39,459 nucleotides of DNA from contig JAHLLJ010000023.1 in the NCBI GenBank assembly GCA_020444205.1, positions 1 to 39,459 of the forward strand, given 5' to 3'. Origin of the DNA: Deltaproteobacteria bacterium. Its GTDB lineage: Bacteria > Desulfobacterota > Desulfarculia > Desulfarculales > Desulfarculaceae. Numbering within the stretch: position 1 is the stretch's first letter; every line of letters starts with the position of its first letter. The position numbers and the translations under genes are program-made. This document shows, piece after piece, positions 3,469 to 29,863 of this stretch. The notes beneath the pieces are model-generated. The model did no database searches, was not told the origin of the DNA, and worked only from the letters and a program-made list of their open reading frames with translations.

Positions 3469-4476
3469 GTGAGCGCGCCGGTGAAAATAGCGGTGGTGGG
3501 AGTGGGCTACTTGGGCCGTTTCCACGCCGAAAAATTGGCCCGCCTGAAGACCGCCGAGCTGGTGGGAGTGGTGGACGCCGATCCCAAACAGGCCGAATCG
3601 GTGGGCAAGGCGGTGGGTTGCCCCAGTTTCAGCGACCACCGCGAATTATTGGGCAAGGTGGAGGCGGTCAGCGTGGTCACCCCCACGGTGACTCACCATG
3701 CGGTGGCCAAGGATTTCTTGACCGCCGAGGCGGACGTGATGTGCGAAAAGCCCATGACCGCCACCTTGGAAGAGGCCGACGAGCTCATCGACTTGGCTGC
3801 TCAGCACGGACGTATCCTGCAAGTGGGCCATTTAGAGCGTTTCAACCCTGCGGTGGAGGGCATGTTTGAGCGGGCGGGCCAGCCCATGTTCCTGGAAGTC
3901 AACCGCATCGCTCCCTTTAAAGCCCGGGCCACGGACGTGGATGTAACCCTGGATTTGATGATTCACGACCTGGACATCATCCTGGCCCTGGTAGGCGCCG
4001 AGCCGGTGGAGATCCGCGCCAAGGGCGTGCCGGTGCTGGGGCCCCACGCCGACCTGGTCAACGCCCGCCTGGAGTTCCCCGGCGGCTGTGTGGCCAATGT
4101 CACCGCCAGCCGCCTGGCCCTTAAGGACGAGCGCAAAATGCGCTTGTTCCAGCCCGATGCCTATCTCTCCCTTGACTTCCGCAAGCGTAAACTCCTGGTG
4201 GTCAGCGGGGTGGAGTATCGCCCCGGCAAGATACCCAAGGTAAAGGCTGAGCGGCCCCGTTTCCCCAAGAGCGATCCCTTGGAAAAGGAACTCAGCGCCT
4301 TTTTGGAATTGGTGCGCACCCGCCAGGCCCCCAGGGTGGACGGCCAGGCGGGCCGCCGGGCCCTGGCCTGCGCCATGCGGGTAAAGGCCTGCGTGGAAGA
4401 GGGCCTGTGCAAGTACCAGGACGTTCTGGAGGCCTCGCCGCGCTGGGTGGAAGCCCTCCCCGACGAGGAAAGTTAG
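3469..4476 (+). CDS. Gfo/Idh/MocA-family NAD(P)-dependent oxidoreductase (lipid A locus)
   Basis: The 335-residue protein has an N-terminal Rossmann fold (GVGYLG at 11-16), the family EKP motif (93-95, with Lys94) and the downstream HLERFNP (121-127). A second conserved block, LDLMIHDLDI, puts His166 at the usual substrate-binding place. Start is GTG behind a near-perfect AAAGGAGG (3457-3464). It sits between lpxI and lpxB, and lpxB begins directly after its stop. GnnA, which oxidises UDP-GlcNAc at C3 for diamino-sugar lipid A, belongs to this superfamily. However, no GnnB aminotransferase is present here, so the substrate is unknown. A lipid A role is inferred from context only. Confidence 0.88.
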   Translation: MSAPVKIAVVGVGYLGRFHAEKLARLKTAELVGVVDADPKQAESVGKAVGCPSFSDHRELLGKVEAVSVVTPTVTHHAVAKDFLTAEADVMCEKPMTATLEEADELIDLAAQHGRILQVGHLERFNPAVEGMFERAGQPMFLEVNRIAPFKARATDVDVTLDLMIHDLDIILALVGAEPVEIRAKGVPVLGPHADLVNARLEFPGGCVANVTASRLALKDERKMRLFQPDAYLSLDFRKRKLLVVSGVEYRPGKIPKVKAERPRFPKSDPLEKELSAFLELVRTRQAPRVDGQAGRRALACAMRVKACVEEGLCKYQDVLEASPRWVEALPDEES

Positions 4477-5615: not shown

Positions 5616-7439
5616 TTGTCTGAGCGGGCTGAAAAACGACAACGTGATATAGCGCACGCCAAGCGCCTGCTGAAGATGGTGCGGCCCTATTGGAAGCGCC
5701 TGGCCGGGGCCATGATCCTCATGGTACTGGTGGGGGCCTCCACCTCGGCCGTGGCCTATCTGGTCAAGCCGGTGATGGACAAGATTTTCGTGGCCCGCGA
5801 CTCCGACCTTCTAATGCTCATGCCCATCGGCATCATCGTGCTTTACATGGTCAAGGGGCTGTCTTCCTACGGCCAGACCTACTTGATGCAGTACGTGGGC
5901 CAGCGCATCGTCACCCAGTTCCGCATAGACCTATACGCCCATTTGCAGCGCCTTAGCCTGAGCTACTACGACCGCACCCCCACCGGCGAGCTGATGAGCC
6001 GCATAACCAACGACGTGAACCAGATGCAAGGCGCGGTGTCGAGCGTGGTCACCGGCGTGCTCAAGGACATGTTCACCATCGTGGGTCTGGTGGGGGTGAT
6101 CGTCTATAGGGACTGGTTCTTGGCGGTCTTCGCCTTGGGGGTGTTTCCCTTGTGCGTGATTCCCCTGGTCAAGTTCGGCCGCAGGCTGCGCAAGATCTCC
6201 CACCGTTCCCAGGAGACCATGGCCGACGTCACCGTCCTTTTGCACGAAACCATTGCCGGGGCCCGCATCGTAAAGGGCTTTTGCCGCGAGGACTACGAGA
6301 CCCAGCGCTTCATCGACGAGGCCTTCCGCCTGTTTCGCCTGCGCATGAAGGACATCTCCACCCGGGCCATGTCCAGCCCGCTCATGGAGTTTTTGGGCGG
6401 CCTGGGTATCGCGGGCATCCTCTTCTACGGCGGCTGGCAGGTTATCCACGGCGTGTCCACCCCAGGCACCTTCTTTTCGTTCCTCACCGCCCTTATCCTG
6501 CTCTATGAGCCGGTCAAGCGCCTGAGCAGCATGAACAACGATGTGCAGAACGGCCTGGCCGCGGCTGAGCGGGTTTACCGGGTATTGGACGAGCCGGTGG
6601 AAATAGCCGAAAAAACCGGCGCCAAGGACCTGGCTCCCCTGCAAAAAGAAATTCGCTTTCAAGATGTCAGCTTTGCTTACCGTCCCGGCGAGCCGGTGCT
6701 GACGGACATAAACCTCACCGTGCCCAAAGGCCAGGCCGTGGCTTTGGTGGGCACCAGCGGGGGCGGCAAGACCACCCTGGTCAACCTGCTGCCCCGCTTC
6801 TACGAGGTGATGAGTGGCTCCATCAGCATTGACGGGACCGACATCCGCCAGGCCACCCTGGGCAGCCTGCGCGGCCAGATCGCCATCGTTACCCAGCAGA
6901 CCATCCTGTTCAACGACACGGTGCGCAACAACATCGCCTATGGCCGCCCAGAGGCCACTGAGGAACAGGTGCGCGCCGCTGCCGAGGCGGCCTATGCCAC
7001 CAAGTTCATCGAACAGATGCCTAACGGACTGGACACATTGATCGGCGAGAGCGGGGTGCTGCTTTCCGGCGGTGAGCGCCAGCGCTTGTCCATCGCGCGG
7101 GCCCTGTTGGCCGACCGGCCCATTTTGATCCTGGACGAGGCCACCAGCAGCCTGGACACCGAGAGCGAGATGTACGTGCAAAAGGCTTTGGAAAACCTCA
7201 TGGCCGGACGCACCACCTTTGTCATTGCCCACCGCCTATCCACGGTGCAGCGGGCCGACCGCATCCTGGTGGTCAGTGGAGGGCGCATAGTGGAGGAGGG
7301 CCGTCACGATGAACTGGTGGCTCTGGGCGGAGTGTATACCCGGTTGCACCGTATGCAGTTCGCCATCGATCAGGGGCTGGATGGAATAACCCCCCAGGCC
7401 GAGCGTCTGGCCGGGGCGTCTGGAGAAGAAAAAGGTTAG
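5616..7439 (+). CDS. msbA: lipid A export ABC transporter MsbA (ATP-binding/permease)
   Basis: The 607 residues combine a six-helix ABC exporter domain (about 25-320) with a C-terminal ATPase. The ATPase shows Walker A GTSGGGKT (379-386), the signature LSGGE (483-487) and Walker B ILILDE with Asp507 and Glu508, plus a switch His in VIAHRLST. MsbA flips lipid A-core across the inner membrane, and its place after lpxB fits that substrate. The start is taken as TTG at 5616, behind GAAGGA (5602-5607). The next ATG (5675) would remove about 20 charged residues. Substrate assignment rests on context, since half-size exporters look alike. Confidence 0.92.
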   Translation: MSERAEKRQRDIAHAKRLLKMVRPYWKRLAGAMILMVLVGASTSAVAYLVKPVMDKIFVARDSDLLMLMPIGIIVLYMVKGLSSYGQTYLMQYVGQRIVTQFRIDLYAHLQRLSLSYYDRTPTGELMSRITNDVNQMQGAVSSVVTGVLKDMFTIVGLVGVIVYRDWFLAVFALGVFPLCVIPLVKFGRRLRKISHRSQETMADVTVLLHETIAGARIVKGFCREDYETQRFIDEAFRLFRLRMKDISTRAMSSPLMEFLGGLGIAGILFYGGWQVIHGVSTPGTFFSFLTALILLYEPVKRLSSMNNDVQNGLAAAERVYRVLDEPVEIAEKTGAKDLAPLQKEIRFQDVSFAYRPGEPVLTDINLTVPKGQAVALVGTSGGGKTTLVNLLPRFYEVMSGSISIDGTDIRQATLGSLRGQIAIVTQQTILFNDTVRNNIAYGRPEATEEQVRAAAEAAYATKFIEQMPNGLDTLIGESGVLLSGGERQRLSIARALLADRPILILDEATSSLDTESEMYVQKALENLMAGRTTFVIAHRLSTVQRADRILVVSGGRIVEEGRHDELVALGGVYTRLHRMQFAIDQGLDGITPQAERLAGASGEEKG

Positions 7440-7445
7440 ATTGCC

Positions 7446-8087
7446 ATGATGTTTTCTTGGTTATCCAGCCAAGTAAATCCTGACGCCGTGCTTCACCGCG
7501 AACTGGCGATAGTCATCAATATTTCGCTGATGGCTGCCATAATGTACTTCGGATGGGATTACTCTCTGCGCCTGCTGTTGGAGGACTTCGGCAACAGCGA
7601 TATGGGTAAGGCCTGGGGCAAGGCGGCCTATTGGATGGGGCACGGCGGTGTGCAACTCGCCTTGGGCGCGATTCTGATGGCCAACGGCTTTCAATTGGGC
7701 AGGTTCAAACGGGTCAAGGCCGGCATTTACTCCATCTGGGCGGTATCCATTTCCGGGGTGGCAGTGCAGGTGGTCAAATATTTGGCGGGCCGGGCCCGGC
7801 CCCGCATGAATCTGCAGGCGGACATGTGGTTTGGGCTGTCCTTTAACTCCGACATGCACTCCTTCCCTTCGGGGCACACCGCCACCAGCTTTGCCCTGGC
7901 CGCCTGGCTGGCCTACCGCTATCCCCACATGGCGGTGGTTTTCTACGGCATGGCCACCTTTGTGGCTGTGGGCCGGGTGATCAGTGGAGCCCATTTCCCG
8001 AGTGACATCCTGGCCGGCGCGGTGCTGGGCATGCTGGTCGGTAGCGTCCTGGCTCTGTGGTCCGAGCGAAAGAGGCAGGCATCATGA
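7446..8087 (+). CDS. PAP2-family membrane phosphatase (possible lipid A or polyprenyl-PP phosphatase)
   Basis: This is a 213-residue integral membrane protein with about six hydrophobic segments. It carries the complete three-part PAP2 signature: K111-x6-R118-P119, PSGH at 141-144, and R177-x5-H183. Members remove phosphate from membrane lipids such as undecaprenyl diphosphate, or from lipid A at the 1- or 4'-position (LpxE, LpxF). Here it follows msbA and overlaps the first GT83 gene by four bases (ATGA), so action on lipid A after export, or recycling of the polyprenyl carrier used by the cassette, is the sensible inference. The sequence does not choose between them. Confidence 0.9.
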   Translation: MMFSWLSSQVNPDAVLHRELAIVINISLMAAIMYFGWDYSLRLLLEDFGNSDMGKAWGKAAYWMGHGGVQLALGAILMANGFQLGRFKRVKAGIYSIWAVSISGVAVQVVKYLAGRARPRMNLQADMWFGLSFNSDMHSFPSGHTATSFALAAWLAYRYPHMAVVFYGMATFVAVGRVISGAHFPSDILAGAVLGMLVGSVLALWSERKRQAS

Positions 8088-9964
8088 AAACCGGGCGAAA
8101 CCTGAAGGGGCCGCTGGCCCTGTTGCTGGTGCTGGCCGCTGCCGCGGCTTTGCTCTTGTCTGGGCTGGGCGACATCCCTCTGACCGACCGCGACGAAGGC
8201 GAGTACGCCGCGGCGGTGGGGGCCATGCGCTCCTCGGGCGATTGGCTGGTGCCCACCCTCAACGGCCGCTCGTATTTGGAAAAGCCTATCCTCATCTTCT
8301 GGGCCATGGCCGGGAGTCAGGCCCTGGTTGGCGATGGCGAGATCGGCGCGCGCCTACCCTCGGCTCTTGCCGCCTTTGCCATGGTCCTGGCCGTGGGGAT
8401 ATTGGTCTGGCGCACCGGCCGGCGGGCGTCCTTGGGGGCAATGGCCGCCGCGGCCTTGGCCTTTTGCCCCTTGTTCGTGCTGGTGGGCCGTGCCTGTCTC
8501 ACCGACGCCTTGCTCAGCCTGTGGACGACCCTGGCCTTGATGGCCGTGTTTCTGGCCTTGGAGAGTGAGGATGGCCGGGGCAAGGGCTGGTGGCTCGTCG
8601 CCTGGGCCGCCCTGGGCCTGGGTTTTCTTACCAAGGGGCCGGTTGCCCTGGCCGTGGTTTTGCCCAGCGCCGCTGTATATGCCTTAGTGCAAGGACGCTT
8701 TATATACGCCCTGCGCAACGCCCGCTGGCTGTGGGGCCTGTTGATCTTCCTGGTGATCAACCTACCCTGGTACGGCTTGGTGTGGTGGAAGCTGGGCGAC
8801 CAATTTATCGACGCCTTTTTCATCTCCCAGAACCTGCGCCGCTTCACCGAGATCTTGCTGGGACACGGCGGAGGCTTGGCCTATTACCTGCCAGTGTTGC
8901 TCTTTGGCGCCTTTCCCTTTGCCGCCGCCGCTCTACCTGAGCTGGGTAGGGCATTGTTTCAAAATCCAAGGGCCCAGCGGGAACTGGATCCCCTGAGCCG
9001 TTTGCATATGTTGGCCGCGGTGGCTTTGCTGGTGGTGCTGGTGGTGTTCAGCCTGGCCGCCACCAAGCAGATCAACTACATTCTGCCCGCCTTGCCCTTT
9101 ATGGCCATGTTGGCTGCTTGTCAGATAAGCCGTCTTGGCGAGGGGCGGGCCCATGGCCGCCTGGCCTGGCCGGTATTTTGGATCGCCCTGTGGGTTTCCG
9201 GCGGCGTCCTGGTGGTGGCCCTGGCCGCGGTTCCGGCGGCTTTGCCCCTGTTTTGGGACAAGATCCTGGCCTCCATACGCTTTGACTCCAGCGAGTACGC
9301 CCTGCCGTTGCGGGCTCCCATGATGGTGCTGTGGCCCCTGCTGGCCGCCTTGACCGGTGGGGTGGCCCTATACCTGGCTTCGTGGGCTGCCCGGCGCGAG
9401 CGCGGCCGCCTGCTGACTTGGTCTTTGGGGGCAGGCGCGGCCCTTTTCTGCGCGGTGGTGTTCCTGGGTATGTTCCCCCAGGCCGCCGGGGTGATACAGC
9501 AGCCGGCCAAGGACATGGCCCTGGAAGCGAAACGCCGGGTTGGAGAGCAGGCCCAGGTGATGACCTATGGTCTGTGGAAACCCAGCCTGATCTACTACAC
9601 CGGGCGCAATCTGCCCCGGATCAAGGTGGATCAGCAGGTGGCACTTGCCAAGAGGCTTTCCTCCGTTGATCCGGTATATGTATTCAGCAGGGTCCGTTTG
9701 CGCGACAAGTTGGCCGCCACGCCGGGATTTAAGATTTTGGACCAGCAAGAGGGTTACCTGCTTGGCGGCAATCAGGCGGCCCTGTACCAATGGAAGGGTG
9801 AAGCGCCACCGCCGGTGAACACCAACAAGCCCGCGACGGCACCCACCGAGCGGCCCGAAGGTCCCGGGCCCCAGGAAAAATATCAACCAGATACTCTAGC
9901 GCCGGACGGGCACAATCCTGCGGCTCCGGAGCAACCCAAGACCAAGGCCAAGGAAATCTTGTGA
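8084..9964 (+). CDS. ArnT-like GT83 family polyprenyl-phosphate-sugar glycosyltransferase 1
   Basis: A 626-residue multi-spanning membrane protein with many Leu/Ala/Val-rich helices. The first periplasmic loop has TDRDEGEYAAAV (Asp35, Asp37, Glu38), the acidic motif of ArnT/PMT-type enzymes, followed by YLEKPIL. Such enzymes take a sugar from a polyprenyl phosphate and attach it, usually to lipid A phosphates, on the periplasmic side. The ATG at 8084 overlaps the PAP2 stop (ATGA) and has AGAGG at 8071-8075; a longer upstream reading is less likely. The last 50 or so residues form an unusual Pro/Thr/Glu/Lys-rich tail that its neighbour lacks. The sugar donor is unknown. Confidence 0.88.
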   Translation: MKTGRNLKGPLALLLVLAAAAALLLSGLGDIPLTDRDEGEYAAAVGAMRSSGDWLVPTLNGRSYLEKPILIFWAMAGSQALVGDGEIGARLPSALAAFAMVLAVGILVWRTGRRASLGAMAAAALAFCPLFVLVGRACLTDALLSLWTTLALMAVFLALESEDGRGKGWWLVAWAALGLGFLTKGPVALAVVLPSAAVYALVQGRFIYALRNARWLWGLLIFLVINLPWYGLVWWKLGDQFIDAFFISQNLRRFTEILLGHGGGLAYYLPVLLFGAFPFAAAALPELGRALFQNPRAQRELDPLSRLHMLAAVALLVVLVVFSLAATKQINYILPALPFMAMLAACQISRLGEGRAHGRLAWPVFWIALWVSGGVLVVALAAVPAALPLFWDKILASIRFDSSEYALPLRAPMMVLWPLLAALTGGVALYLASWAARRERGRLLTWSLGAGAALFCAVVFLGMFPQAAGVIQQPAKDMALEAKRRVGEQAQVMTYGLWKPSLIYYTGRNLPRIKVDQQVALAKRLSSVDPVYVFSRVRLRDKLAATPGFKILDQQEGYLLGGNQAALYQWKGEAPPPVNTNKPATAPTERPEGPGPQEKYQPDTLAPDGHNPAAPEQPKTKAKEIL

Positions 9965-11664
9965 GCACTTGGCTGCAAAATCACGTATGGCAACGCCGCC
10001 TGTACATCCTCATTCTGCTGGCGGTGTGCGCGGCATTGTTCTTTTCCCTGGGAGGCATGCGCGACCTGTGGGAGACCGACGAGGCCCGCTACGCCGAGCT
10101 GGGCCGGGAGATGCTGGACTCCGGCTCCTTGAGCCATTGGATAATTCCCCGCCTGAACTACGTGATTTACCTGGAAAAGCCGCCTCTTTATTACTGGCTG
10201 ACCGCCTTGAGCTTTGCCGTTTTCGGAGTGGGCGAGGCGGCGGCCCGTTTTATACCCGCGCTATTCGGCACCTTGAGCGTGTTGATCGCCTTTGCTCTGG
10301 GCCGCGATATGTGGGGGGATGAAAAATCGGGCTTCTGGTCCGGGCTGGTGCTGGCCACCTCGCTGATGTTTTTCGTGTTGAGCCGGGTGATTCTGGTGGA
10401 TATGGTGCTGTGTTTCGGCATCATTCTGGCTGTATGGGGAGCCTGGAGCCTCAGGGCTGGGAAAGGCTGGGGGCTCTACGCCTTTTGGGTGGGCTGCGCC
10501 GTGGGCTTCCTTACCAAGGGGGTGCTGGGGCCCGGCCTGGCGGTCATGTCCATAGTGCTATTCGCCGCCCTGGCCGGAGAGTGGCGGCTGTTGAGGCGCC
10601 TGCTGGACTGGCGGGGCCCAGCCCTGTTTGTGCTGCTCACTGCCCCCTGGGTGGTGGCCGCCGCCCTGCTGCACAAGGGATTCATCACTTACTTTTTCTG
10701 GGATGAGCAGGTGGGTCGTCTGCTCACCAACCAGCACCAGCGCTTCCAGCCCTGGTGGTACTTTTTCGTGCTCATGCCTGGAGCTTTTTTCCCCTGGATA
10801 ACCCTGCTGCCCTGGTGCGTGGGCCGCACCTTCCCCCGCATGGAGTGGCGCAAGCCCGAAGCCCGGCCCTGGCTCTTGGCCGCGGTGTGGTTCCTGGGCA
10901 TGTTCATCTTCTTCACCTTGTCGCGCTCCAAGATGATGCACTACGCCTTGCCTATGCTGCCCCCCCTGGCCCTGCTTGTGGGGCGGCCTCTCAGCGGGGT
11001 GATGTCCTGGCCCCGTGGGGCCACCGCGCCCGGCGGAATCAGGGCCAGCCTCACGGTCTTGGCCGCTTTGTGCCTGGTGGTGGGTCTGGCTATGCTGGTG
11101 TTTCCGGCCATCAACCCAGACATAAGCTACAGCCAGGCCGGGGTGATACTCTTCCTCGGCCCCTTGTTCATGGCTCTGCTTGCCTTGGGGGTTTACCTCA
11201 CCCGCAAGCGCGCCTGGGCCGCGGCCATTGCGCCGCTGACCGTGTTCGCGCTTTTGGTGCTGGGTGCGGCGGAGGTAGCGCCCACCCTGGACCGTTTACG
11301 TTCGGTAGGGCCCCTGCTCAAACCCATTGCCGCCCAACTGAGACCTGATGACGTAGTGGCCACCTTGGGCGACTACTGGCACGGCGTGGCCTTTTACACC
11401 AAGAAGCGGGTGCTGGTGGCCGACAACTGGGGAGAGCTGGACTTCGGGCGGCGTCTGGACCCACAACGGGACAAATGGTTCTTGCAAGGCAACCGGAGCT
11501 TGCTCAAGGTCATGGCTGGTGACAAAAGGGTGTTTGTCATTGCCAAGAACGACCGCTGGGAACGCCTTCATGCCCTGGCTCAAAAACGCAAGCATGCTCT
11601 GCCGTTATTTCCTTGGGCCACGGCGGGCGACAAGACCCTGTTCAGCAACCGTCCGCGCAGCTGA
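9961..11664 (+). CDS. ArnT-like GT83 family polyprenyl-phosphate-sugar glycosyltransferase 2
   Basis: This is a second GT83 protein, 567 residues, starting at a GTG that overlaps the previous stop by four bases. The first helix (about 13-30) leads into LWETDEARYAELGREML, with Asp40 and Glu41 in the canonical ArnT acidic motif, then LEKPPLYYW. About a dozen hydrophobic segments are followed by a soluble C-terminal domain from about residue 430. It is closer to textbook ArnT than its partner: the WETDEARY wording matches the family. The two are diverged paralogues, so they may use different donors or acceptor positions. The probable role is lipid A sugar decoration in the periplasm. Confidence 0.88.
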   Translation: MSTWLQNHVWQRRLYILILLAVCAALFFSLGGMRDLWETDEARYAELGREMLDSGSLSHWIIPRLNYVIYLEKPPLYYWLTALSFAVFGVGEAAARFIPALFGTLSVLIAFALGRDMWGDEKSGFWSGLVLATSLMFFVLSRVILVDMVLCFGIILAVWGAWSLRAGKGWGLYAFWVGCAVGFLTKGVLGPGLAVMSIVLFAALAGEWRLLRRLLDWRGPALFVLLTAPWVVAAALLHKGFITYFFWDEQVGRLLTNQHQRFQPWWYFFVLMPGAFFPWITLLPWCVGRTFPRMEWRKPEARPWLLAAVWFLGMFIFFTLSRSKMMHYALPMLPPLALLVGRPLSGVMSWPRGATAPGGIRASLTVLAALCLVVGLAMLVFPAINPDISYSQAGVILFLGPLFMALLALGVYLTRKRAWAAAIAPLTVFALLVLGAAEVAPTLDRLRSVGPLLKPIAAQLRPDDVVATLGDYWHGVAFYTKKRVLVADNWGELDFGRRLDPQRDKWFLQGNRSLLKVMAGDKRVFVIAKNDRWERLHALAQKRKHALPLFPWATAGDKTLFSNRPRS

Positions 11665-11703
11665 CCGGCTCGATCAACCCCATAGCTAACAGGCCGGGGC
11701 AAC

Positions 11704-11732
11704 TTGATTTATGCCCCTTTGCCTGCCATAGT
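11704..11732 (+). promoter_or_regulatory. possible internal sigma70 promoter ahead of the GT2 gene
   Basis: In the 117-base gap after the second GT83 gene, TTGATT (11704-11709) and CATAGT (11727-11732) are 17 bases apart. Each matches four of six consensus bases. The gap is long compared with the overlapping genes on either side, which argues for a local control point. No terminator is evident here. This is a weak call. Confidence 0.33.
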
Positions 11733-11781
11733 ATAAACCCGCGAACAGCGAGTTTTGGCATCACCCAAGGCGGAGAGGCAC

Positions 11782-12741
11782 ATGCCCCCGGCAGCCACGG
11801 AAAACCAGCCCTACCTATCGGTGGTTATCCCCGTTTTCAACGAAGAGGACAACCTGACGGAGCTTCACGCCCGCCTGGCGTTGACCCTGAACGCCTCCCC
11901 TTGGGATTGGGAGGTGCTTTATGTGGACGACGGCTCCAAGGACACCTCCTGGAAGCTATTGTGCCGTTTTCAGGAGCAAGACTCCCACGTGCGCCTGGTG
12001 CGCTTCAATCGCAACTACGGGCAGCACATGGCGATCTTCGCGGGCTTTGAAAGGGTGCGGGGCCAGGTGGTGGTGACCCTGGACGCGGACCTGCAAAACC
12101 CCCCGGAAGAAGTGCCCAAGCTGGTTAACAAGCTGGAAGAGGGCTTTGACGTGGTCAGTGGTTGGCGGCAAAACCGCCACGACTCGGTGCTGCGCAAGAT
12201 ACCCACTTGGTTGGTGGCCAAGATTACCAGCCGGGTAGTGGGGGTGCAGCTCAAGGACTACGGCTGCATGCTCAGAGCCTACCGTAGCGAGGTGGTGGAG
12301 GCCATGAGCGCTTCCCAAGAATCATCTTCTTATATCCCCGCCCTGGCCAACCTCTACGCGGCCAATGTGGCCGAGATTCCCGTGGCGCATGCCGAGCGTG
12401 CGGCGGGCGAGTCCAAGTATGGACTGTTCCAGCTCATCAAGCTCAACTTTGACCTGATGACCGGTTTTTCGGTGCTGCCCATCCAGATGGTCAGTGTTCT
12501 GGGAGTGCTCATCGCCCTTATCGGTCTGGGATTTGGTTTGTTTTTGTTCATCCGCCGTCTGGTGGTGGGCCCGGAAGTGGGGGGGGTGTTCACCCTGTTT
12601 GCCATCCTCTTCGTCTTCGTGGGCCTGCAAATCCTGGTGGTGGGGCTTACGGGTGAGTACCTGGGCCGTATCTACCGCGAGGTTCGCCGACGGCCGCGAT
12701 TTGTCATCCGTGAGACCAGGGACTCCGAAGCCGGGTCGTAA
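11782..12741 (+). CDS. arnC: ArnC-like GT2 undecaprenyl-phosphate sugar transferase
   Basis: The 319 residues comprise a GT-A catalytic domain (about 10-230) and two C-terminal membrane helices (about 232-262 and 270-292). Motifs are VVIPVFNEEDNL, DDGS (49-52) and LDADLQNPPEE (from residue 100), plus RNYGQHMAIFAGF and the closing GEYLGRIYREVRRRPRFV. Similarity to ArnC as remembered is extensive, including DYGCMLRAYR and HAERAAGESKY. The enzyme loads a sugar on undecaprenyl phosphate in the cytoplasm. The donor may be UDP-Ara4FN (ArnC) or a UDP-HexNAc (FlmF2/LgmB type), and no ArnA or ArnB is nearby. ATG 11782 with GGAGAGG (11772-11778) is preferred over a TTG 27 bases earlier. Confidence 0.88.
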   Translation: MPPAATENQPYLSVVIPVFNEEDNLTELHARLALTLNASPWDWEVLYVDDGSKDTSWKLLCRFQEQDSHVRLVRFNRNYGQHMAIFAGFERVRGQVVVTLDADLQNPPEEVPKLVNKLEEGFDVVSGWRQNRHDSVLRKIPTWLVAKITSRVVGVQLKDYGCMLRAYRSEVVEAMSASQESSSYIPALANLYAANVAEIPVAHAERAAGESKYGLFQLIKLNFDLMTGFSVLPIQMVSVLGVLIALIGLGFGLFLFIRRLVVGPEVGGVFTLFAILFVFVGLQILVVGLTGEYLGRIYREVRRRPRFVIRETRDSEAGS

Positions 12742-12743
12742 TT

Positions 12744-13691
12744 ATGGTCGCTAACCGGTCCGAGCCTTCAGCGGCCGACACCCGCCTGGTTCTAAAAGTA
12801 GACATCGACACCAAGGTGGGCCTGCTTTCCGGAGTGCCTCGCCTAATGGATATATTCCACAAGGCCGGGGTGAAGGCCTCCTTTTACATCTCCATGGGGC
12901 CTGACCATTCGGGCCGCGCCCTGGCTCGCCTGGTAAAGCCGGGATTTTTGCGAAAGCAGCTGCGCTCCGATGCGGCCGGTGCCTACGGTATCACCACCAT
13001 GCTCTATGGCGTGGCCTTGCCCGGCCCCATCATCGCCCAGGCCGCTCCGCATCTTTTCCACGAGCTGCTTTCCCAGGGCCACGAGGTAGGGTTGCACGGC
13101 TGGGACCATGTTTTCTGGCACGACCGCATGCGCCATCTGCCCGAGCCCCGCATTCGCTCTCATCTGGGGCGTGCCTGGCGGCTATACAAGCAGATCACCG
13201 GAATGGCGCCGGCCAGCTTTGCCTCGCCTGGTTGGCAGATAACCCCCACCGCTTATCAGGCTCTGGCCGACATGGGCATCAGCCACGTGTCTTGCGCCAG
13301 GGGGCGCACCCCTTTCCGGCCCCTGGCGGGTGGCCGCGCCTTGCCCTTGGTGGAGTTGCCCACCACCATGCCCACCCTGGATGAGATATTGGGCCGTGAC
13401 GGTGTAACCCTGGACACCGCCGCCGCCTGGCTGGCCGACCAGGTGCGCCCCGGCGAGCTCAACGTGTACACCCTGCACGGTGAGGTGGAGGGCAGGGCCC
13501 AGGCCCCGGTGCTGCAGAGCCTCATCGCCCGCTTGCAGGATAGGGGAGTGAGTTTCCCTCGCCTGGTGGATGCCGCCGCCCAGGAAGCCGCAAAGGGCGT
13601 GCCTGTGGACAAGGTAGTGTGGGCTCAGGCTTTGGGACGGGCCGGAGACCTGGCCTGGCAAGCCTCGGACCTGGCAGGGGGCGAGGCATGA
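12744..13691 (+). CDS. arnD: ArnD/NaxD-like polyprenyl-phosphate-sugar deacylase (polysaccharide deacetylase fold)
   Basis: A 315-residue NodB-type deacetylase. Metal and catalytic positions visible are Asp20-x-Asp22 in VDIDTKVG and HxxxH at His118/His122 (GLHGWDH). Many ArnD-specific words are present: GVPRLMDIF, LVKPGFLRKQLRSDAA, TPFRP, TLDEILGRDGV and TLHGEVEG. ArnD deformylates undecaprenyl-P-Ara4FN, and its relative NaxD deacetylates undecaprenyl-P-GalNAc in Francisella and Bordetella. It follows the ArnC-like gene after two bases, so the two act in sequence on the same carrier-linked sugar. The sequence alone does not decide the sugar. Its stop overlaps the waaA start. Confidence 0.88.
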   Translation: MVANRSEPSAADTRLVLKVDIDTKVGLLSGVPRLMDIFHKAGVKASFYISMGPDHSGRALARLVKPGFLRKQLRSDAAGAYGITTMLYGVALPGPIIAQAAPHLFHELLSQGHEVGLHGWDHVFWHDRMRHLPEPRIRSHLGRAWRLYKQITGMAPASFASPGWQITPTAYQALADMGISHVSCARGRTPFRPLAGGRALPLVELPTTMPTLDEILGRDGVTLDTAAAWLADQVRPGELNVYTLHGEVEGRAQAPVLQSLIARLQDRGVSFPRLVDAAAQEAAKGVPVDKVVWAQALGRAGDLAWQASDLAGGEA

Positions 13692-14977
13692 AGCGCGCCT
13701 TGTACAGCCTGGCCCTGGGATTGGGGACAGTGGCAGCCTCGCCGTTCATAGCCGCCCGCCTGGCCCGGCCGCCCAAACGCGGTGCCACCTTGGCCCGCCT
13801 GGGCCTGGGGCCTATGGCCAAGCCCAGCCCTTTGGAGCCCGGCGGCATCTGGCTGCATGCCCTGAGTGTGGGTGAGTCGGTATCTGCCCTGCCTTTGGTG
13901 CGCGGCCTGCGCGAGCGCTTCCCCAACAAGCCAATTGCCTTTTCCTGCGGCACGGGCCAGGGTTTGGTCACCGCGCAAGACAAGCTGGGCGATCAAGTGG
14001 ACGCCACTTTCATCCGCCCTTTGGAGCTGCCCTGGGCTATGCGCCCGGTTATGAAAGCCCTACGGCCCGGCCTGGCCATCCTGGTGGAGGGCGACCTGTG
14101 GCCTGGATGGCAATGGGCTCTGGCCGAGCAGGGAGTGCCACGCATGCTGGTCAACGGCAGGGTGAGCCCCCGCACCCTCAGAGGCTATCGCCGTCTGGGG
14201 CCTTTGGCCCGGGAGCTGTGGCGGGGTTTTGATCAGGTGTTGGTGCAGACCGCCACGGACCGGGAGCGCCTGCTCAGCGTGGGGGTAAGTGCGGACAAGG
14301 TTCAGGTGGGCGGCAACCTCAAGTTCGACAGTGCCCCTGCGGCCTTGGATGAAGCCCAGCGTGGTGCTTTAGCCGACGAGTTGGGTTTGGCCGATCGTAA
14401 GGTTTTGGTGGCCGGGTCCACCCACGCTGGGGAAGAAGAGCCCTGCCTGGACGCCTTTGTTCAGCTAAAGGATCGCGTGCCCGGGCTGGCTCTGCTCATC
14501 GCTCCCCGGGAGGTAGAGCGGGGCGGGGCGGTGGCCCGCCTGGCCCAAGAGCGCGGGCTCAGCGCGGCCCGGCTCTCCCAGGGGCAGGCGCCAAAAGACA
14601 GCCAAGTGGTGGTGCTGGACCTGCTGGGCAAGCTGGCCGCTGCCTATGCCCTGGGCGCGGCAGCCTTTGTGGGCGGCTCCCTGGTGTCCGTGGGCGGGCA
14701 CAATCTCTTGGAGCCCGCCGCCCAGGGGGTGCCCGTGGTGTTTGGGCCCATCACCCACAACTTTTTAGAGATGGCCCGCGACCTGGAAGCAGCCGGAGGA
14801 GGCTTGCGCATCAACTCTGGTGCGGAGCTGGCCCAGGCCTGGGGTGGGTTGCTGGAGCGCCCGGAAGAAGCACAGGCCATGGGCCAGGCGGCGCGCAATT
14901 TCGTGGAGGCGCATCACGGCGCGGTGGAGAGGGCGGTGTCCACGGCGGCCATGCTTTTGGAGAACGGCCGTGCCTAG
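13688..14977 (+). CDS. waaA: 3-deoxy-D-manno-octulosonic acid (Kdo) transferase
   Basis: The 429-residue GT30 enzyme attaches Kdo from CMP-Kdo to lipid IVA at the cytoplasmic face. An N-terminal hydrophobic anchor (about 1-25) is followed by IWLHALSVGES with the catalytic Glu63, ILVEGDLWPGW (the family ETELWP region, here EGDLWP), LVNGRVSPRT, VGGNLKFD and GGHNLLEPAAQGVPVVFGP. The ATG at 13688 overlaps the deacylase stop (ATGA), and a longer upstream reading would run into the previous gene. Whether it adds one, two or more Kdo residues cannot be read from sequence. Confidence 0.95.
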   Translation: MKRALYSLALGLGTVAASPFIAARLARPPKRGATLARLGLGPMAKPSPLEPGGIWLHALSVGESVSALPLVRGLRERFPNKPIAFSCGTGQGLVTAQDKLGDQVDATFIRPLELPWAMRPVMKALRPGLAILVEGDLWPGWQWALAEQGVPRMLVNGRVSPRTLRGYRRLGPLARELWRGFDQVLVQTATDRERLLSVGVSADKVQVGGNLKFDSAPAALDEAQRGALADELGLADRKVLVAGSTHAGEEEPCLDAFVQLKDRVPGLALLIAPREVERGGAVARLAQERGLSAARLSQGQAPKDSQVVVLDLLGKLAAAYALGAAAFVGGSLVSVGGHNLLEPAAQGVPVVFGPITHNFLEMARDLEAAGGGLRINSGAELAQAWGGLLERPEEAQAMGQAARNFVEAHHGAVERAVSTAAMLLENGRA

Positions 14978-19670: not shown

Positions 19671-20630
19671 ATGAACATTTTGGTCACCGGCGCGGCGGGC
19701 TTCATCGGCTCGCGCCTCTCGGAAAGCTTATTGGAGCTCGGCCACCGCGTGCGGGGCATAGACAGCTTCACCGATTACTATCCGCGCCCCCTTAAGGAAG
19801 CCAACCTCCAAGCCCTGCGCGACAGCGACGGGTTCGAGTTGATCGAGGCCGACATCATGGAGGTGCCTCCCGCTGAGTTGCTGGAGGAAATAGAGACGGT
19901 AGTGCACCTGGCCGCCCAGGCCGGGGTGCGCCGCTCTTGGGGTAGCAACTTCGCCATCTACACCCACAACAACATCCTCACCACCCAACGCCTGCTGGAA
20001 GCGGGCAAGGAGATGGGTTTGGGGCGCCTGGTCTATGCCGGGTCCTCCAGTGTATATGGCGATACTCAGGACCTGCCCATGCGCGAGACCAGCGCCTGCT
20101 GGCCGGTTTCGCCTTACGGGGTTACCAAGCTGGCCGCCGAGCATCTCTGCGGCCTGTACCACAAGAACTTCGGAATGGACACGGCCAGCCTACGCTACTT
20201 TACGGTCTACGGGCCCCGGCAGCGGCCGGACATGGCCTTTCACCGCTTTATCCGCGCCCAACTGGAGGGCGGCACCATCCGCCTGTTCGGCGACGGTGAA
20301 CAGTCGCGCGACTTCACCTATGTGGACGATATCGTGGCCGCCACCATCGCCGCGGTAACCACCCCCGAGGCCACGGGCCAGGTGTTCAACGTGGGCGGCG
20401 GTTCGCGGGTCAGCGTGAACCAGGTTATCGCCATGCTCGAGGAGGTCACCGGCAAAAGCGCTCAAGTGGAGCGCTTGGAGGTGGCCAAGGGTGATGTACG
20501 AGACACCCAAGCCGACTGCTCCAAGGCCCGTGATATCCTAGGCTATGTGCCCCAGGTGAGCCTGGCCCAGGGCCTGGCCGCTGAAACGGACTGGGTGCGC
20601 GAAAACCTCAAGCTGTTGCAGGAAGTGTAA
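19671..20630 (+). CDS. NAD-dependent epimerase, probable UDP-glucuronate/UDP-glucose 4-epimerase
   Basis: A 319-residue extended short-chain dehydrogenase. It has the NAD-binding LVTGAAGFIGSRL, the catalytic triad Ser125-127, Tyr149 and Lys153 (SPYGVTK), and VYGPRQRPDMAFHRFI. That last wording is usual in UDP-glucuronate 4-epimerases. With the ugd gene at 28559 it could make UDP-galacturonate for core or lipid A decoration. UDP-Glc/UDP-Gal interconversion cannot be excluded. It starts seven bases after waaC. Confidence 0.85.
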   Translation: MNILVTGAAGFIGSRLSESLLELGHRVRGIDSFTDYYPRPLKEANLQALRDSDGFELIEADIMEVPPAELLEEIETVVHLAAQAGVRRSWGSNFAIYTHNNILTTQRLLEAGKEMGLGRLVYAGSSSVYGDTQDLPMRETSACWPVSPYGVTKLAAEHLCGLYHKNFGMDTASLRYFTVYGPRQRPDMAFHRFIRAQLEGGTIRLFGDGEQSRDFTYVDDIVAATIAAVTTPEATGQVFNVGGGSRVSVNQVIAMLEEVTGKSAQVERLEVAKGDVRDTQADCSKARDILGYVPQVSLAQGLAAETDWVRENLKLLQEV

Positions 20631-25281: not shown

Positions 25282-26294
25282 CCTACGGTTTTGACTTGGA
25301 TCGCCTTCAACAAGCAGTGCAGCAATTTAGCAGTAAGCGCATTTTGGTGTTGGGCGACGTTATGCTCGACGAGTTCATCTGGGGCAGGGTGGAGCGCATC
25401 AGCCCCGAGGCACCAGTGCCGGTGGTCGAGGTGGAGAGCGAGACTTACATGCTCGGCGGCGCGGCCAACGTGGTGCACAACCTCATCGCTTTGGGCTGCG
25501 GAGCCGGCATATGCGGCATGGTGGGTGACGACCGGGCCGGGTGGCAGGTGTTGGAGCTTTTGGACCAACTGGAGGTCTCCAATAAAGGGCTGATCGTAAG
25601 CGCCGAGCGTCCCACCACGGTCAAGACCAGGGTGGTGGCCCACAGTCAACAGATGGTGCGGGTGGACCGTGAAAGCCGCAGGGAGTGCCCCGACCGAGAG
25701 CTCGCCGGTATGCAAGCCTATCTGCAAAACGAGCTGCCCCGCTGCGACGCGGTAATAATCAGCGATTACGCCAAGGGGGTGATAAGCCGGGCCGTGTTGA
25801 ATACCGTGCAGGAGCAGGCAAGCTCCGGCAGGCTGGTGGTGAGTGTTGACCCCAAGGTGGTCAACATGCCCCTGTACACCGGGGCCACGGTGGTGACTCC
25901 CAACCACTACGAGGCCCTGGCCGCCGCCCGGGTAAGCCCCCAGGGAGAAAAGGCGGTGGAGCGGGCTGGGCGCATTCTTTTGGAAAATTTGCAGGCCGGG
26001 GCCATCTTGATAACCCAGGGGGAGCGGGGCATGACCCTGATCACGCCCGAGGGCATGGATCATGTGCCTACCATGGCCAAGCAGGTATTTGACGTAACCG
26101 GCGCCGGGGATACGGTAATCAGCACCCTTACCCTGGGGCTGGTTAGCGGCCTAAGCCTTAGCGAAGCCGCGGTTATGGCCAACGTGGCCGCCGGGGTGGT
26201 GGTGGGCGAGGTGGGCACCTCGGCGGTGACCGCCGGACGGTTGTCCAAGGCCCTGGAGCAGGATTTGCGCTCCCTCAACCGCAGGAATAACTGA
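25278..26294 (+). CDS. rfaE1: D-glycero-beta-D-manno-heptose-7-phosphate kinase (HldE kinase domain, RfaE1)
   Basis: A 338-residue PfkB/ribokinase-fold protein corresponding to the N-terminal half of bifunctional HldE. LVLGDVMLDEFIWG and MLGGAANVVHNLIALG are the sugar-site blocks, and DVTGAGDTVIS (272 onward, base Asp278) is the ATP/catalytic motif. It makes heptose-1,7-bisphosphate, the substrate of GmhB at 18057. The nucleotidyltransferase half is absent, so a separate rfaE2/hldE2 must lie elsewhere. It overlaps the GT9 gene by four bases. Confidence 0.93.
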   Translation: MTYGFDLDRLQQAVQQFSSKRILVLGDVMLDEFIWGRVERISPEAPVPVVEVESETYMLGGAANVVHNLIALGCGAGICGMVGDDRAGWQVLELLDQLEVSNKGLIVSAERPTTVKTRVVAHSQQMVRVDRESRRECPDRELAGMQAYLQNELPRCDAVIISDYAKGVISRAVLNTVQEQASSGRLVVSVDPKVVNMPLYTGATVVTPNHYEALAAARVSPQGEKAVERAGRILLENLQAGAILITQGERGMTLITPEGMDHVPTMAKQVFDVTGAGDTVISTLTLGLVSGLSLSEAAVMANVAAGVVVGEVGTSAVTAGRLSKALEQDLRSLNRRNN

Positions 26295-27253
26295 TGGCCT
26301 CCTATCTGGTTACGGGGGGGGCTGGTTTTATCGGCTCCCATCTGGCCCAGGCGTTGACCGCCCGGGGAGATGCGGTGCGGGTTTTGGACAACCTTACCTC
26401 CGGCAAAATGCTCAACCTGCAAGCCGCGCGCCAGGGAAAGGGCGAGTTCTCCTTTATCGAAGGCGATATCCGCGATCTGCAGACCTGCCAGCAGGCCATG
26501 GAGGGGATCGACTACGTGCTGCACCAGGCCGCGCGGCCCAGCGTGCAGCGCTCCATTGAAAACCCTCTGGCCACTCATGCGGTAAACGCCACCGGTAGCC
26601 TGAACCTGCTTTGGGCGGCCCAGGAAGCAGGGGTGAAGCGGGTGGTGGTGGCCAGCAGTTCCTCTATCTACGGCGACGTAATCCCCGAGTCAGCTCCCAA
26701 AACCGAGTCCTTGCCGCCCAATCCCTTGAGTCCCTATGCGGTGAGCAAGGTGGCCATGGAAAACTACTGCGTGGCCTTCCACAAGGTTTACGGCCTGGAG
26801 ACCGTGCGCTTGCGCTACTTCAACGTGTTCGGCCCACGCCAGGACCCGGAGTCACCATACGCGGCGGTGGTCCCCAAGTTTCTATTCGCCTTGGACGCTG
26901 GTGAAACCCCCACCGTATTGGGCGACGGCCTCCAGAGCCGCGACTTCACTTATGTGGACAACGTGGTGGCCGCCAACCTGGCCGCCTGCACCGCACCAGA
27001 TGCGCCGGGATTGGCCCTGAACGTGGCCGCCGGGGTCAGCCACAACCTTCTGGACCTGTTGCGGGTGCTGGGTGAGTTCCTGGGCAAGAACGGCAAACCA
27101 AACTTTGGCCCGGCCCGTTGCGGCGAGGTTCGCAGCAGCCTAGCTTCCCTGGAGCTTACCAAGCGAGTGCTGGACTATGAGCCTGAGGTGGACTTCCGCC
27201 AGGGATTGGCCCGTTTGGTTGAGCTGGCCCACCAAGGCAGGTACCAGGACTGA
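26294..27253 (+). CDS. SDR epimerase, probable UDP-N-acetylglucosamine 4-epimerase (WbpP-like)
   Basis: A 319-residue extended SDR with GGAGFIG (8-14), Ser120-124, Tyr148 and Lys152 (SPYAVSK). The block FGPRQDPESPYAAVVPKF is the form seen in WbpP/Gne-type UDP-HexNAc C4-epimerases, which interconvert UDP-GlcNAc and UDP-GalNAc. This would supply GalNAc for O-antigen, core or the polyprenyl-linked decoration cassette upstream. HldD function is unlikely because its characteristic active-site wording is absent. One-base overlaps (TGATG) join it to both neighbours. Confidence 0.85.
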   Translation: MASYLVTGGAGFIGSHLAQALTARGDAVRVLDNLTSGKMLNLQAARQGKGEFSFIEGDIRDLQTCQQAMEGIDYVLHQAARPSVQRSIENPLATHAVNATGSLNLLWAAQEAGVKRVVVASSSSIYGDVIPESAPKTESLPPNPLSPYAVSKVAMENYCVAFHKVYGLETVRLRYFNVFGPRQDPESPYAAVVPKFLFALDAGETPTVLGDGLQSRDFTYVDNVVAANLAACTAPDAPGLALNVAAGVSHNLLDLLRVLGEFLGKNGKPNFGPARCGEVRSSLASLELTKRVLDYEPEVDFRQGLARLVELAHQGRYQD

Positions 27254-28558: not shown

Positions 28559-29863
28559 ATGAATATATGCATGGTTGGCGTGGGGTACGTCGGTTTGGTG
28601 ACCGGGGCCTGCTTCGCCGAGTTCGGTATCAACGTGGTGTGCGTGGACAAGGTCCAGGAAAAGATCGACATGCTCAAGCGGGGCAAGGTGCCGATCTATG
28701 AGCCGGGCCTGGAGGAGATGGTGGCCAAGAACGCACGCGAGGGCCGCCTTAGCTTTACTACCGACCTGGAAGAGGGCATAAAGAACTCGTTGGTTATTTT
28801 TATCGCCGTAGGCACCCCCCAGGGCAACGACGGCGCGGCGGACCTCAAGTACGTGGAGCAGGTGGCCAAGAGCATCGGCCAGACCATGACCGACTACAAG
28901 GTGGTGGTGACCAAGTCCACGGTGCCGGTGGGCACTGGTCAGAAGGTGGCGGCCATCATCAAGGCCAACCAGAGCTCGCCCATAGACTTCGACGTGGTGA
29001 GTAACCCCGAGTTTTTGCGCGAGGGCTCAGCCATCGAGGACTTCATGCGCCCCAACCGGGTGGTGGTGGGCACGGCGAGCGAGCGGGCCCAGGCCGTGAT
29101 GCGCGACCTCTACGCCCCCCTGTACCTTATCGAGACTCCCTTTGTGGTCACCAACGTGGAGACCGCGGAGATGATCAAGTACGCCTCCAATGCCTTTTTG
29201 GCCACCAAGATAAGCTTTATCAACGAGATGGCCAATATCTGCGAAAAGGTGGGGGCGGATGTGAACCAGGTGGCCAAGGGCATGGGCCTGGATAGGCGTA
29301 TCGGCCCCAAGTTCCTGCACGCCGGGCCGGGATACGGCGGCTCCTGCTTCCCCAAGGACACCGAGGCCATTGCCCACATAGCCAAGGATTGCGATTACCG
29401 TTTCCGTATCGTGGAGGCGGTGATTGAGGTAAACCGCACCCAGCGTCAGCGCATGGCCAACAAGATTTCCCAGGCCTTGGGCGGAGAGCTGGAGGGCAAG
29501 GTGGTGGCCTGCTTGGGGCTCACCTTTAAGCCCAACACCGACGACATGCGCGAGTCGCCCAGCTTGGCCATCCTGCCGGCCATAATGCAGCAGGGGGCCA
29601 CGGTGCGCGCCTACGACCCTGCCGGCATGGCCGAGGCCATGGAGAAGATGCCCGGCCTGGTTGCTTGCGACAACGCCTACCACGCGGCCGAAGATGCCGA
29701 CTGTCTGGTGATCATGACCGAGTGGAACCAGTTTCGTAACCTAGACTGGGCGCGGCTAAAAGAGGTAATGGGCGGCAAGGTGGTGGTGGATCTGCGCAAC
29801 GTGTACACCCCGGAGAAGGTGCGCCAGGCGGGATTTAAGTACTTCAGCGTGGGACGCCCCTAG
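28559..29863 (+). CDS. ugd: UDP-glucose 6-dehydrogenase
   Basis: A 434-residue NAD-dependent dehydrogenase that oxidises UDP-glucose twice to UDP-glucuronate. It has the N-terminal Rossmann motif MVGVGYVGLVTG, KSTVPVGTG, SNPEFLREGSA and GPGYGGSCFPKDTEA with catalytic Cys263. The C-terminal LTFKPNTDDMRESPS is also standard. UDP-glucuronate can feed the epimerase at 19671 (to UDP-GalA) or other pathways. GDP-mannose dehydrogenase is related but the pattern fits UGD best. Confidence 0.95.
   Translation: MNICMVGVGYVGLVTGACFAEFGINVVCVDKVQEKIDMLKRGKVPIYEPGLEEMVAKNAREGRLSFTTDLEEGIKNSLVIFIAVGTPQGNDGAADLKYVEQVAKSIGQTMTDYKVVVTKSTVPVGTGQKVAAIIKANQSSPIDFDVVSNPEFLREGSAIEDFMRPNRVVVGTASERAQAVMRDLYAPLYLIETPFVVTNVETAEMIKYASNAFLATKISFINEMANICEKVGADVNQVAKGMGLDRRIGPKFLHAGPGYGGSCFPKDTEAIAHIAKDCDYRFRIVEAVIEVNRTQRQRMANKISQALGGELEGKVVACLGLTFKPNTDDMRESPSLAILPAIMQQGATVRAYDPAGMAEAMEKMPGLVACDNAYHAAEDADCLVIMTEWNQFRNLDWARLKEVMGGKVVVDLRNVYTPEKVRQAGFKYFSVGRP

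Follow-up and report, generated by a model that had tools for sequence, protein, structure and literature searches.

We asked which sugar a set of five genes lying between msbA and waaA would add to lipid A in a genome with no recognisable ArnA. The set is found in a stretch of 39,459 nucleotides (hereafter the window), which is one contig (JAHLLJ010000023.1) of a Desulfarculaceae metagenome-assembled genome (MAG; assembly GCA_020444205.1, our G000; 4.44 Mb in 342 contigs, 82% complete, 5% contamination). It encodes a PAP2 phosphatase, two glycosyltransferases of family GT83 (GT83a and GT83b), a family GT2 glycosyltransferase and a deacylase. Its likeness is to the Arn (Pmr) system, arnBCADTEF in E. 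coli, in which arnA and arnB serve to make 4-amino-4-deoxy-L-arabinose (Ara4N). The cassette is real, conserved, Arn-derived and without ArnA; it is a variant of known systems rather than wholly new, and no earlier description of the arrangement was found in the open-licence literature. Among the readings considered, we lean slightly towards an Arn-lineage lipid A module that lacks ArnA and likely uses an N-acetylhexosamine donor, with PAP2 and GT83a forming a second pair.

Five genes between msbA and waaA

All five open reading frames (ORFs) are on the plus strand and occupy the interval between msbA and waaA to which the initial annotation had assigned them. The features are:

5616..7439, plus strand: msbA, upstream border of the cassette (ORF, conserved order in relatives; named from sequence)
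7446..8087, plus strand: PAP2 phosphatase (PF01569, 2.8e-23)
8084..9964, plus strand: GT83a, ArnT-related transferase (PF13231, PF02366; NCBIfam ArnT model 127 of 567 bits)
9961..11664, plus strand: GT83b, ArnT-like, with an Arnt_C domain (PF02366, PF18583; NCBIfam ArnT model 200 of 567 bits)
11755..12741, plus strand: GT2, predicted ArnC-type undecaprenyl-phosphate sugar transferase (NCBIfam ArnC model 356 of 529 bits)
12744..13691, plus strand: ArnD-type deacylase (PF01522; NCBIfam ArnD model 221 of 382 bits)
13688..14977, plus strand: waaA, the Kdo (3-deoxy-D-manno-oct-2-ulosonic acid) transferase, downstream border (ORF, conserved order in relatives; named from sequence)

The starts at 8084 (GT83a) and 13688 (waaA) are chosen in-frame ATGs of longer frames that begin at 8057 and 13619. 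With these starts, PAP2/GT83a, GT83a/GT83b and deacylase/waaA overlap by 4 bases each, and about 90 bases lie upstream of GT2, whose start is uncertain, another in-frame ATG lying 27 bases inside. The Raetz locus spans lpxD to lpxL in the window and encloses the cassette; its genes were named from sequence and conserved order, lpxI and lpxL also by NCBIfam.

Compared with E. coli K-12, the GT2 is 49% identical to ArnC and the deacylase 37% to ArnD, and GT83a and GT83b match ArnT at 30% over 354 residues only and 28% over 335 only. The closest solved structures of the GT2 are those of ArnC (9bhc, 7.4e-95; 8vxh, 1e-94). The solved relatives of the deacylase and GT83b are structures of ArnD (8t0j, 2e-49) and ArnT (5ezm, 5.9e-47), and the best solved relative of PAP2 is LpxE (6ebu, 6.2e-10). 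GT83a, GT83b, GT2 and the deacylase all score below their NCBIfam equivalog cut-offs. No arnE or arnF was recognised at the locus, for which no model-based search was made.

Conservation of the site

The comparison covered the sulfate-reducer family of the host MAG (f1, 20 genomes) and its order (21 genomes, G020 belonging to a second family). GT83a was present in 20 of the 21 order genomes, G012 being the sole exception. A cassette-type deacylase was found in 18 of the 20 f1 genomes as well as in G020; it was missing from G012, which has a canonical ArnD instead, and from G014 (71% complete), where no deacylase of this kind was found. The span from msbA to waaA was visible in 12 f1 genomes, the window included, and 10 of these carried all five genes in order. 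The two exceptions were G006, without PAP2, and G012, with one GT83 only. Seven more f1 genomes are broken by contig ends and were consistent as far as visible. The order in G020 is PAP2, GT83a, a gap of about half a kilobase, GT2 and deacylase; this gap (L061, between 10356 and 10852) held no identified gene across the ~0.5 kb where f1 carries GT83b. G021, from another family of the class, has an empty site, msbA directly adjoining waaA. Because the gene set is conserved through the family, it is not a chance arrangement, and its placement inside the Raetz-pathway locus, also put forward in the initial annotation, was borne out across f1.

No recognisable ArnA decarboxylase in the cassette-bearing genomes

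The 18 cassette-bearing f1 genomes are the denominator for the ArnA counts. The E. coli ArnA protein was searched against 19 genomes, and the curated models NF008872 (decarboxylase) and NF005414 (formyltransferase) against 23. NF008872 scored above its cut-off in none of the 18 cassette-bearing genomes; it passed in G012, G028 and G053 only of the 23, and in E. coli alone of 14 controls. The protein search recovered full-length ArnA in G012 and G028 and two pieces in G053, genuine copies at 53–66% identity, and in the remaining genomes matches at 25–35%, plus one formyltransferase half at 51% in G008. NF005414 was above its cut-off in one of the 18 (G008) and passed only in G008, G012 and G028 of the 23, the G053 copy being interrupted by a contig end. 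The G008 formyltransferase (L124, G008:C11, 9336-10253) reached 355 bits against the cut-off of 316, with no decarboxylase or ArnB match within 20 kb around it.

Other formyltransferase-family proteins were also seen. Each of the 8 genus genomes had one NF005414 match at 1e-10, which was Fmt in both that were checked, G006 (one contig) and G007 (100% complete). G009 (one contig) carried Fmt and a protein closest to a dTDP-sugar formyltransferase model. In the MAG itself, at its 82% completeness, neither an ArnA decarboxylase nor an ArnA formyltransferase was found; its second formyltransferase-family protein has 269 amino acids (aa) and is weak (35 bits). Three candidates were set aside. A protein on G000:C241, 34–35% identical to the formyltransferase half of ArnA (ArnA-N), is most likely Fmt, and the formyltransferases on G013 C65 (177 of 316 bits) and G016 C129 lie near aminotransferases and resemble other sugar genes.

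The initial annotation had noted that arnA and arnB are missing locally, and neither is in the window: the eight DegT-family and two formyltransferase-family matches of the MAG all lie on other contigs, and the two epimerase-like window genes gave no ArnA model match at 1e-20. The wider search that it had proposed likewise turned up no arnA in the MAG or its most complete relatives. For arnB, the best DegT matches to ArnB, at 35–43% identity in the 15 genomes searched of the 18 cassette-bearing f1 genomes, leave room for an ArnB elsewhere. DegT enzymes are many; for comparison, the best match was 66% in G012 and 55% in G028. The best ArnB-like protein of G009 fits the ArnB model (356 of 631 bits) and the PseC model (354 of 424 bits) about equally.

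With no ArnA decarboxylase, and the formyltransferase in one genome only, the donor is most likely an N-acetylhexosamine. Alternatively, this may still be an Ara4N system, supplied with UDP-Ara4N or its formylated form, UDP-Ara4FN, by strongly diverged enzymes encoded elsewhere. Family proteins of up to 35% identity to the decarboxylase half of ArnA, the ArnB-like aminotransferases, including that of G009, and the ArnA-type formyltransferase of G008 would all suit such a system. However, the decarboxylase model passed in none of the 18 genomes whereas true ArnA was recovered in G012, G028 and G053, and the single formyltransferase match per genus genome proved to be Fmt in G006 and G007. We consider an Ara4N system unlikely and retain N-acetylhexosamine as the preferred donor.

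Origin of the GT2 and the deacylase

Relatives were obtained by a scan of named genome contigs by deacylase similarity, of which the best 80 of at least 579 loci were used (Desulfarculaceae, Desulfarculus and Dethiosulfatarculus sandiegensis among them), so that the trees sample near relatives. Eight duplicated loci and all rows no longer than 240 aa were removed before counting, which reduced the deacylase set from 103 to 95 rows and the GT2 set from 70 to 61.

Loci with a split arnA were found in Desulfobacca, Syntrophobacterales, Rokubacteria and other delta-type MAGs. They carry GT2, ArnA-type formyltransferase, decarboxylase or epimerase, and deacylase genes, with the GT2 54–64% and the deacylase 39–44% identical to those of the window. 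Their GT2 and deacylase genes lie close together, as in the window, but the formyltransferase and decarboxylase/epimerase genes stand between the two, and no msbA or waaA is labelled there, except waaA in G053. In L176, the split-arnA locus that was scored with NCBIfam, both sugar genes exceed their cut-offs, one with 362 bits against 316 and the other with 546 against 294.

Within the GT2 tree, the f1 rows fall in a 28-row clade (97/92) together with 11 arnA-linked rows and G020, and 76% of bootstrap trees recover f1 as a single group. The deacylases of f1 form one clade (100/100) in their tree, next to 10 arnA-linked rows (88/82), and G053 and G020 follow (87/96). Identities and trees place the ArnC, ArnD and ArnT homologues of the cassette in the Arn lineage. 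The tree check suggested in the initial annotation went against its hexosamine reading, for the GT2 and the deacylase are placed among Arn loci, most of which retain arnA genes; the same placement speaks for the Ara4N alternative. That annotation had named a combination of two genomic findings as contrary to it, placement with Arn and arnA and arnB elsewhere in the genome: the trees gave the first, and the ArnA search came out in its favour.

G053 shows an intermediate between arnA-linked and arnA-less cassettes. One of its contigs carries a gene judged LptG-like by eye, then PAP2, GT2 (66%) and the larger part of ArnA-N, and a second carries a piece resembling the end of ArnA-N, then ArnA-C, deacylase, waaA and lpxK; the two contigs presumably adjoin each other. 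The simplest history for these sequences would start from an arnA-containing cassette whose sugar genes disappeared in a single event in f1, with perhaps a second, separate loss in G020.

Residues of the deacylase were compared across these groups. D20, D22, H118, H122 and H245 are invariant in a 19-row alignment, and we take their catalytic roles to be those of the CE4 family. At D184, 17 of 18 f1 rows have Cys and one has Thr, and the position is Asp in 21/21 canonical, 9/9 Synergistota/Pectinatus-type and 11/15 split-arnA rows. Residues 24-25, 72 and 181 likewise differ between groups; the group comparison at D184 and these positions took in 16 of the 18 f1 rows. An Arg-to-Gln change in the 'GWR' motif was dropped as a marker of arnA loss, as arnBCA loci of Pectinatus and Synergistaceae also have Gln.

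ArnD-like proteins also occur outside these cassettes. Those of Holophagaceae/Acidobacteriota formed one 15-row clade (L177, L181, L182, L184, L187, L195-L202, L207, L220), and further ArnD-like loci were seen in Geobacter-type and Sulfuricellaceae genomes (L158, L163, L171; L186, L203). No ArnA, ArnC or ArnT match was found within the fetched stretches of these loci, among which L195, L163, L186 and L158 were inspected more closely.

GT83 residues, PAP2 and two natural losses

Roles of CmArnT residues for the carrier and the lipid A phosphate are given in passages of PMC8306577. GT83b retains the key ArnT residues in 13 of 14 family rows, the fourteenth (L055) ending at a contig edge. GT83a retains all of them except the equivalent of Arg58: 12 of 13 rows (G020 included) have Glu there, and the thirteenth is the decayed copy of G006. 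With Glu in place of this phosphate-orienting Arg, the acceptor may differ from that of ArnT, and GT83a probably uses another one. The initial annotation had proposed a complete ArnC, ArnD and ArnT-type route; the known catalytic residues are indeed kept by the deacylase and GT83b, and the GT2 is assigned its step by homology. In PAP2, K111, R118-P119, S142-G143-H144, R177, H183 and D187 are invariant across 12 aligned rows, a motif that is complete but general.

Two genomes have lost parts of the cassette. G006 has no PAP2 between msbA and GT83a, and a search of that genome with the window PAP2 gave a single, distant match (37%, 8.1e-15). Its GT83a (L044, 10466-12328) remains open over 621 aa and is 63% identical to that of the window, but the residues corresponding to Asp55, Glu84, Lys203, Arg270 and Tyr345 have been substituted or lost, with Arg at position 58; every key residue is retained in the GT83b of G006. 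Only in G012, among the f1 genomes, was a canonical arnBCADT operon (L062) found; it lies elsewhere, and the cassette site of G012 has no GT2 or cassette deacylase. There, msbA and waaA are separated by a single GT83 frame of 535 aa (L256, 8899-10503), which groups with GT83b on a long branch (support 1.000; FastTree of GT83a, GT83b and ArnT rows). Key residues are altered in all six motifs, and the enzyme is predicted to be catalytically dead. These losses suggest two pairings, one of PAP2 and GT83a and one of GT83b and the genes for carrier loading.

The site GT83 proteins in L044 (G006) and L256 (G012) are thus open frames minus catalytic residues, as if retained as pseudoenzymes. Separately, a lone ArnT with the key residues is encoded in the window's own MAG (L245, G000:C177, 10071-11777) and in G006 (L246, 9931-11643). 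These are 37% and 34% identical to E. coli ArnT, respectively, with no other arn match adjoining, and among the five genomes searched none was found in G007 and G009. The lone ArnT could use the same carrier sugar, which is a complication.

It is also conceivable that the target is not a lipid A phosphate at all, but, for example, Kdo, the inner core or some other glycolipid of the envelope. Burkholderia is known to carry Ara4N on its Kdo, and waaA directly adjoins the cassette. GT83a, moreover, is missing the Arg from the residue pair by which the lipid A phosphate is oriented, going by the roles described in passages of PMC8306577. On the other side, GT83b retains the ArnT residues for both lipid A phosphate and carrier, and the cassette sits inside the lpxD-to-lpxL stretch. 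We regard a different target as rather unlikely, and a lipid A phosphate remains our preferred acceptor for GT83b.

Proposed mechanism and comparison with known systems

In the mechanism that we favour, the GT2 would take an N-acyl amino sugar from its UDP-linked form and attach it to undecaprenyl phosphate, and the ArnD-type enzyme would take off the acyl group, freeing the amine. After flipping, GT83b would act in the manner of ArnT and transfer the amino sugar to a phosphate of lipid A. The donor would be an N-acetylhexosamine nucleotide, UDP-N-acetylglucosamine (UDP-GlcNAc) or UDP-N-acetylgalactosamine (UDP-GalNAc), and the ancestral deformylase would now work as a deacetylase. Such a donor, which would put hexosamine (HexN) on lipid A, is our best guess, drawn from the absence of ArnA. 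PAP2 probably strips one phosphate from lipid A; the sugar transferred by GT83a probably goes to a different acceptor, possibly the position freed by PAP2.

The cassette resembles Arn of E. coli in its ArnC- and ArnD-like enzymes and in GT83b, with its key ArnT residues and Arnt_C domain. It differs in having no ArnA or clear ArnB, and in its two GT83s, its PAP2 and its msbA-waaA placement. PAP2 and GT83a recall another known process, the exchange of a lipid A phosphate for a sugar through LpxE/LpxF and RgtD-type enzymes in Rhizobium, Aquifex and Caulobacter. PAP2 stands beside a GT83, and LpxE is its best solved relative; from this we infer a link to that exchange, although those systems use galacturonic acid and are not known to involve ArnC/ArnD.

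The initial annotation had described the deacylase as ArnD/NaxD-like and the set as equally like the Francisella FlmF2-NaxD-FlmK (galactosamine) and Bordetella Lgm systems, which raises the possibility of orthology with one of them. Neither Flm nor Lgm is known to need ArnA/ArnB. As outlined in parts of PMC11279074, PMC8306577 and PMC11895810, they share carrier loading, deacetylation and ArnT-type transfer with our proposal. In Francisella, N-acetylhexosamine on the carrier loses its acetyl group, after which an ArnT-type enzyme transfers the sugar to lipid A (Flm is also treated in parts of PMC4688374), and in Bordetella, by description, an ArnT-type enzyme places glucosamine on lipid A phosphates (excerpts of PMC11401268 and PMC11895810). 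Passages of PMC8306577 describe FlmF1 and FlmF2 as arnC homologues; the FlmF2 gene also goes by the name YfdH in PMC8149597, and its product is termed an ArnC homologue or of ArnC type, in sections of PMC8149597 and PMC8306577. However, NaxD belongs to the YdjC superfamily according to a passage of PMC11279074, whereas the window deacylase is ArnD-type, matching PF01522 and DUF2334 only at 1e-3, with no YdjC match; membership with NaxD was rejected on this ground. In addition, the GT2 is 26% identical to E. coli YfdH, taken as a proxy for FlmF2 after the gene name in PMC8149597, versus 49% to ArnC. The claimed equal likeness thus found no support, though for the GT2 alone, given the ArnC-type naming of FlmF2, it may still apply; orthology with Flm/NaxD or Lgm is highly improbable.

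Several observations weigh against an Arn-lineage module with an N-acetylhexosamine donor. The ArnC lineage of the GT2 by itself favours an Ara4N-type sugar, ArnB-like aminotransferases are present in family genomes, and to the ArnA-type formyltransferase of G008 a weaker one is added in G020 (222 of 316 bits). Six of the 18 cassette-bearing f1 genomes are less than 90% complete. Rokubacteria GT2 groups with f1 (20-row group, 94/75), yet the Rokubacteria deacylases stand apart, and the deacylases of G053 and G020 sit on long branches that may have been joined falsely, according to a warning of the tree program. Four of the 15 split-arnA rows, G053 among them, have likewise lost the Asp at position 184, so loss of this Asp does not require loss of arnA; since arnA-bearing loci also have the Gln of the GWR motif, the residue changes are not simple trackers of arnA loss. 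PAP2 scored 23 of 177 bits with the LpxE model versus 34 with the SepP model, both far below cut-off. The GT83a of G006 retains the Asp158 and Lys85 equivalents, each coupled loss was seen in one genome, and no lipid A chemistry was found for Desulfarculaceae.

A more far-reaching version would hold that ArnC and ArnD were retuned to N-acetylhexosamine after ArnA loss and that the module became fixed in the primary lipid A operon. The two transferases would then serve different acceptors, with an amino sugar on phosphate and a sugar at the PAP2-freed position, and dead GT83 copies would be kept as pseudoenzymes once their partners were lost. This version is possible but doubtful.

Neighbouring genes in the window

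A Gfo/Idh/MocA protein is encoded at 3469-4476, between lpxI and lpxB, a position that it keeps in relatives. It scored 185 bits with a UDP-GlcNAc 3-dehydrogenase model (cut-off 450), a hint that it may be GnnA and lipid A may carry a diamino sugar (GlcN3N), to which GnnA is linked. Downstream lie two NAD-dependent sugar epimerases (19671-20630 and 26294-27253), of which the second comes closest to the TviC model (214 of 760 bits). At 28559-29863 is a dehydrogenase that by eye resembles Ugd. These enzymes could supply variants of UDP-N-acetylhexosamine.

Implications

Related genomes present a graded series of empty site, arnA-linked cassette, arnA-less cassette and decayed cassette. Testable pairings come from GT83a, decayed where PAP2 is absent, and from GT83b, decayed where GT2 and deacylase are absent. 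If the proposal is true, the donor sugar of a lipid A decoration can change through gene loss while the carrier enzymes stay, and annotation of ArnC, ArnD and ArnT need not imply aminoarabinose.

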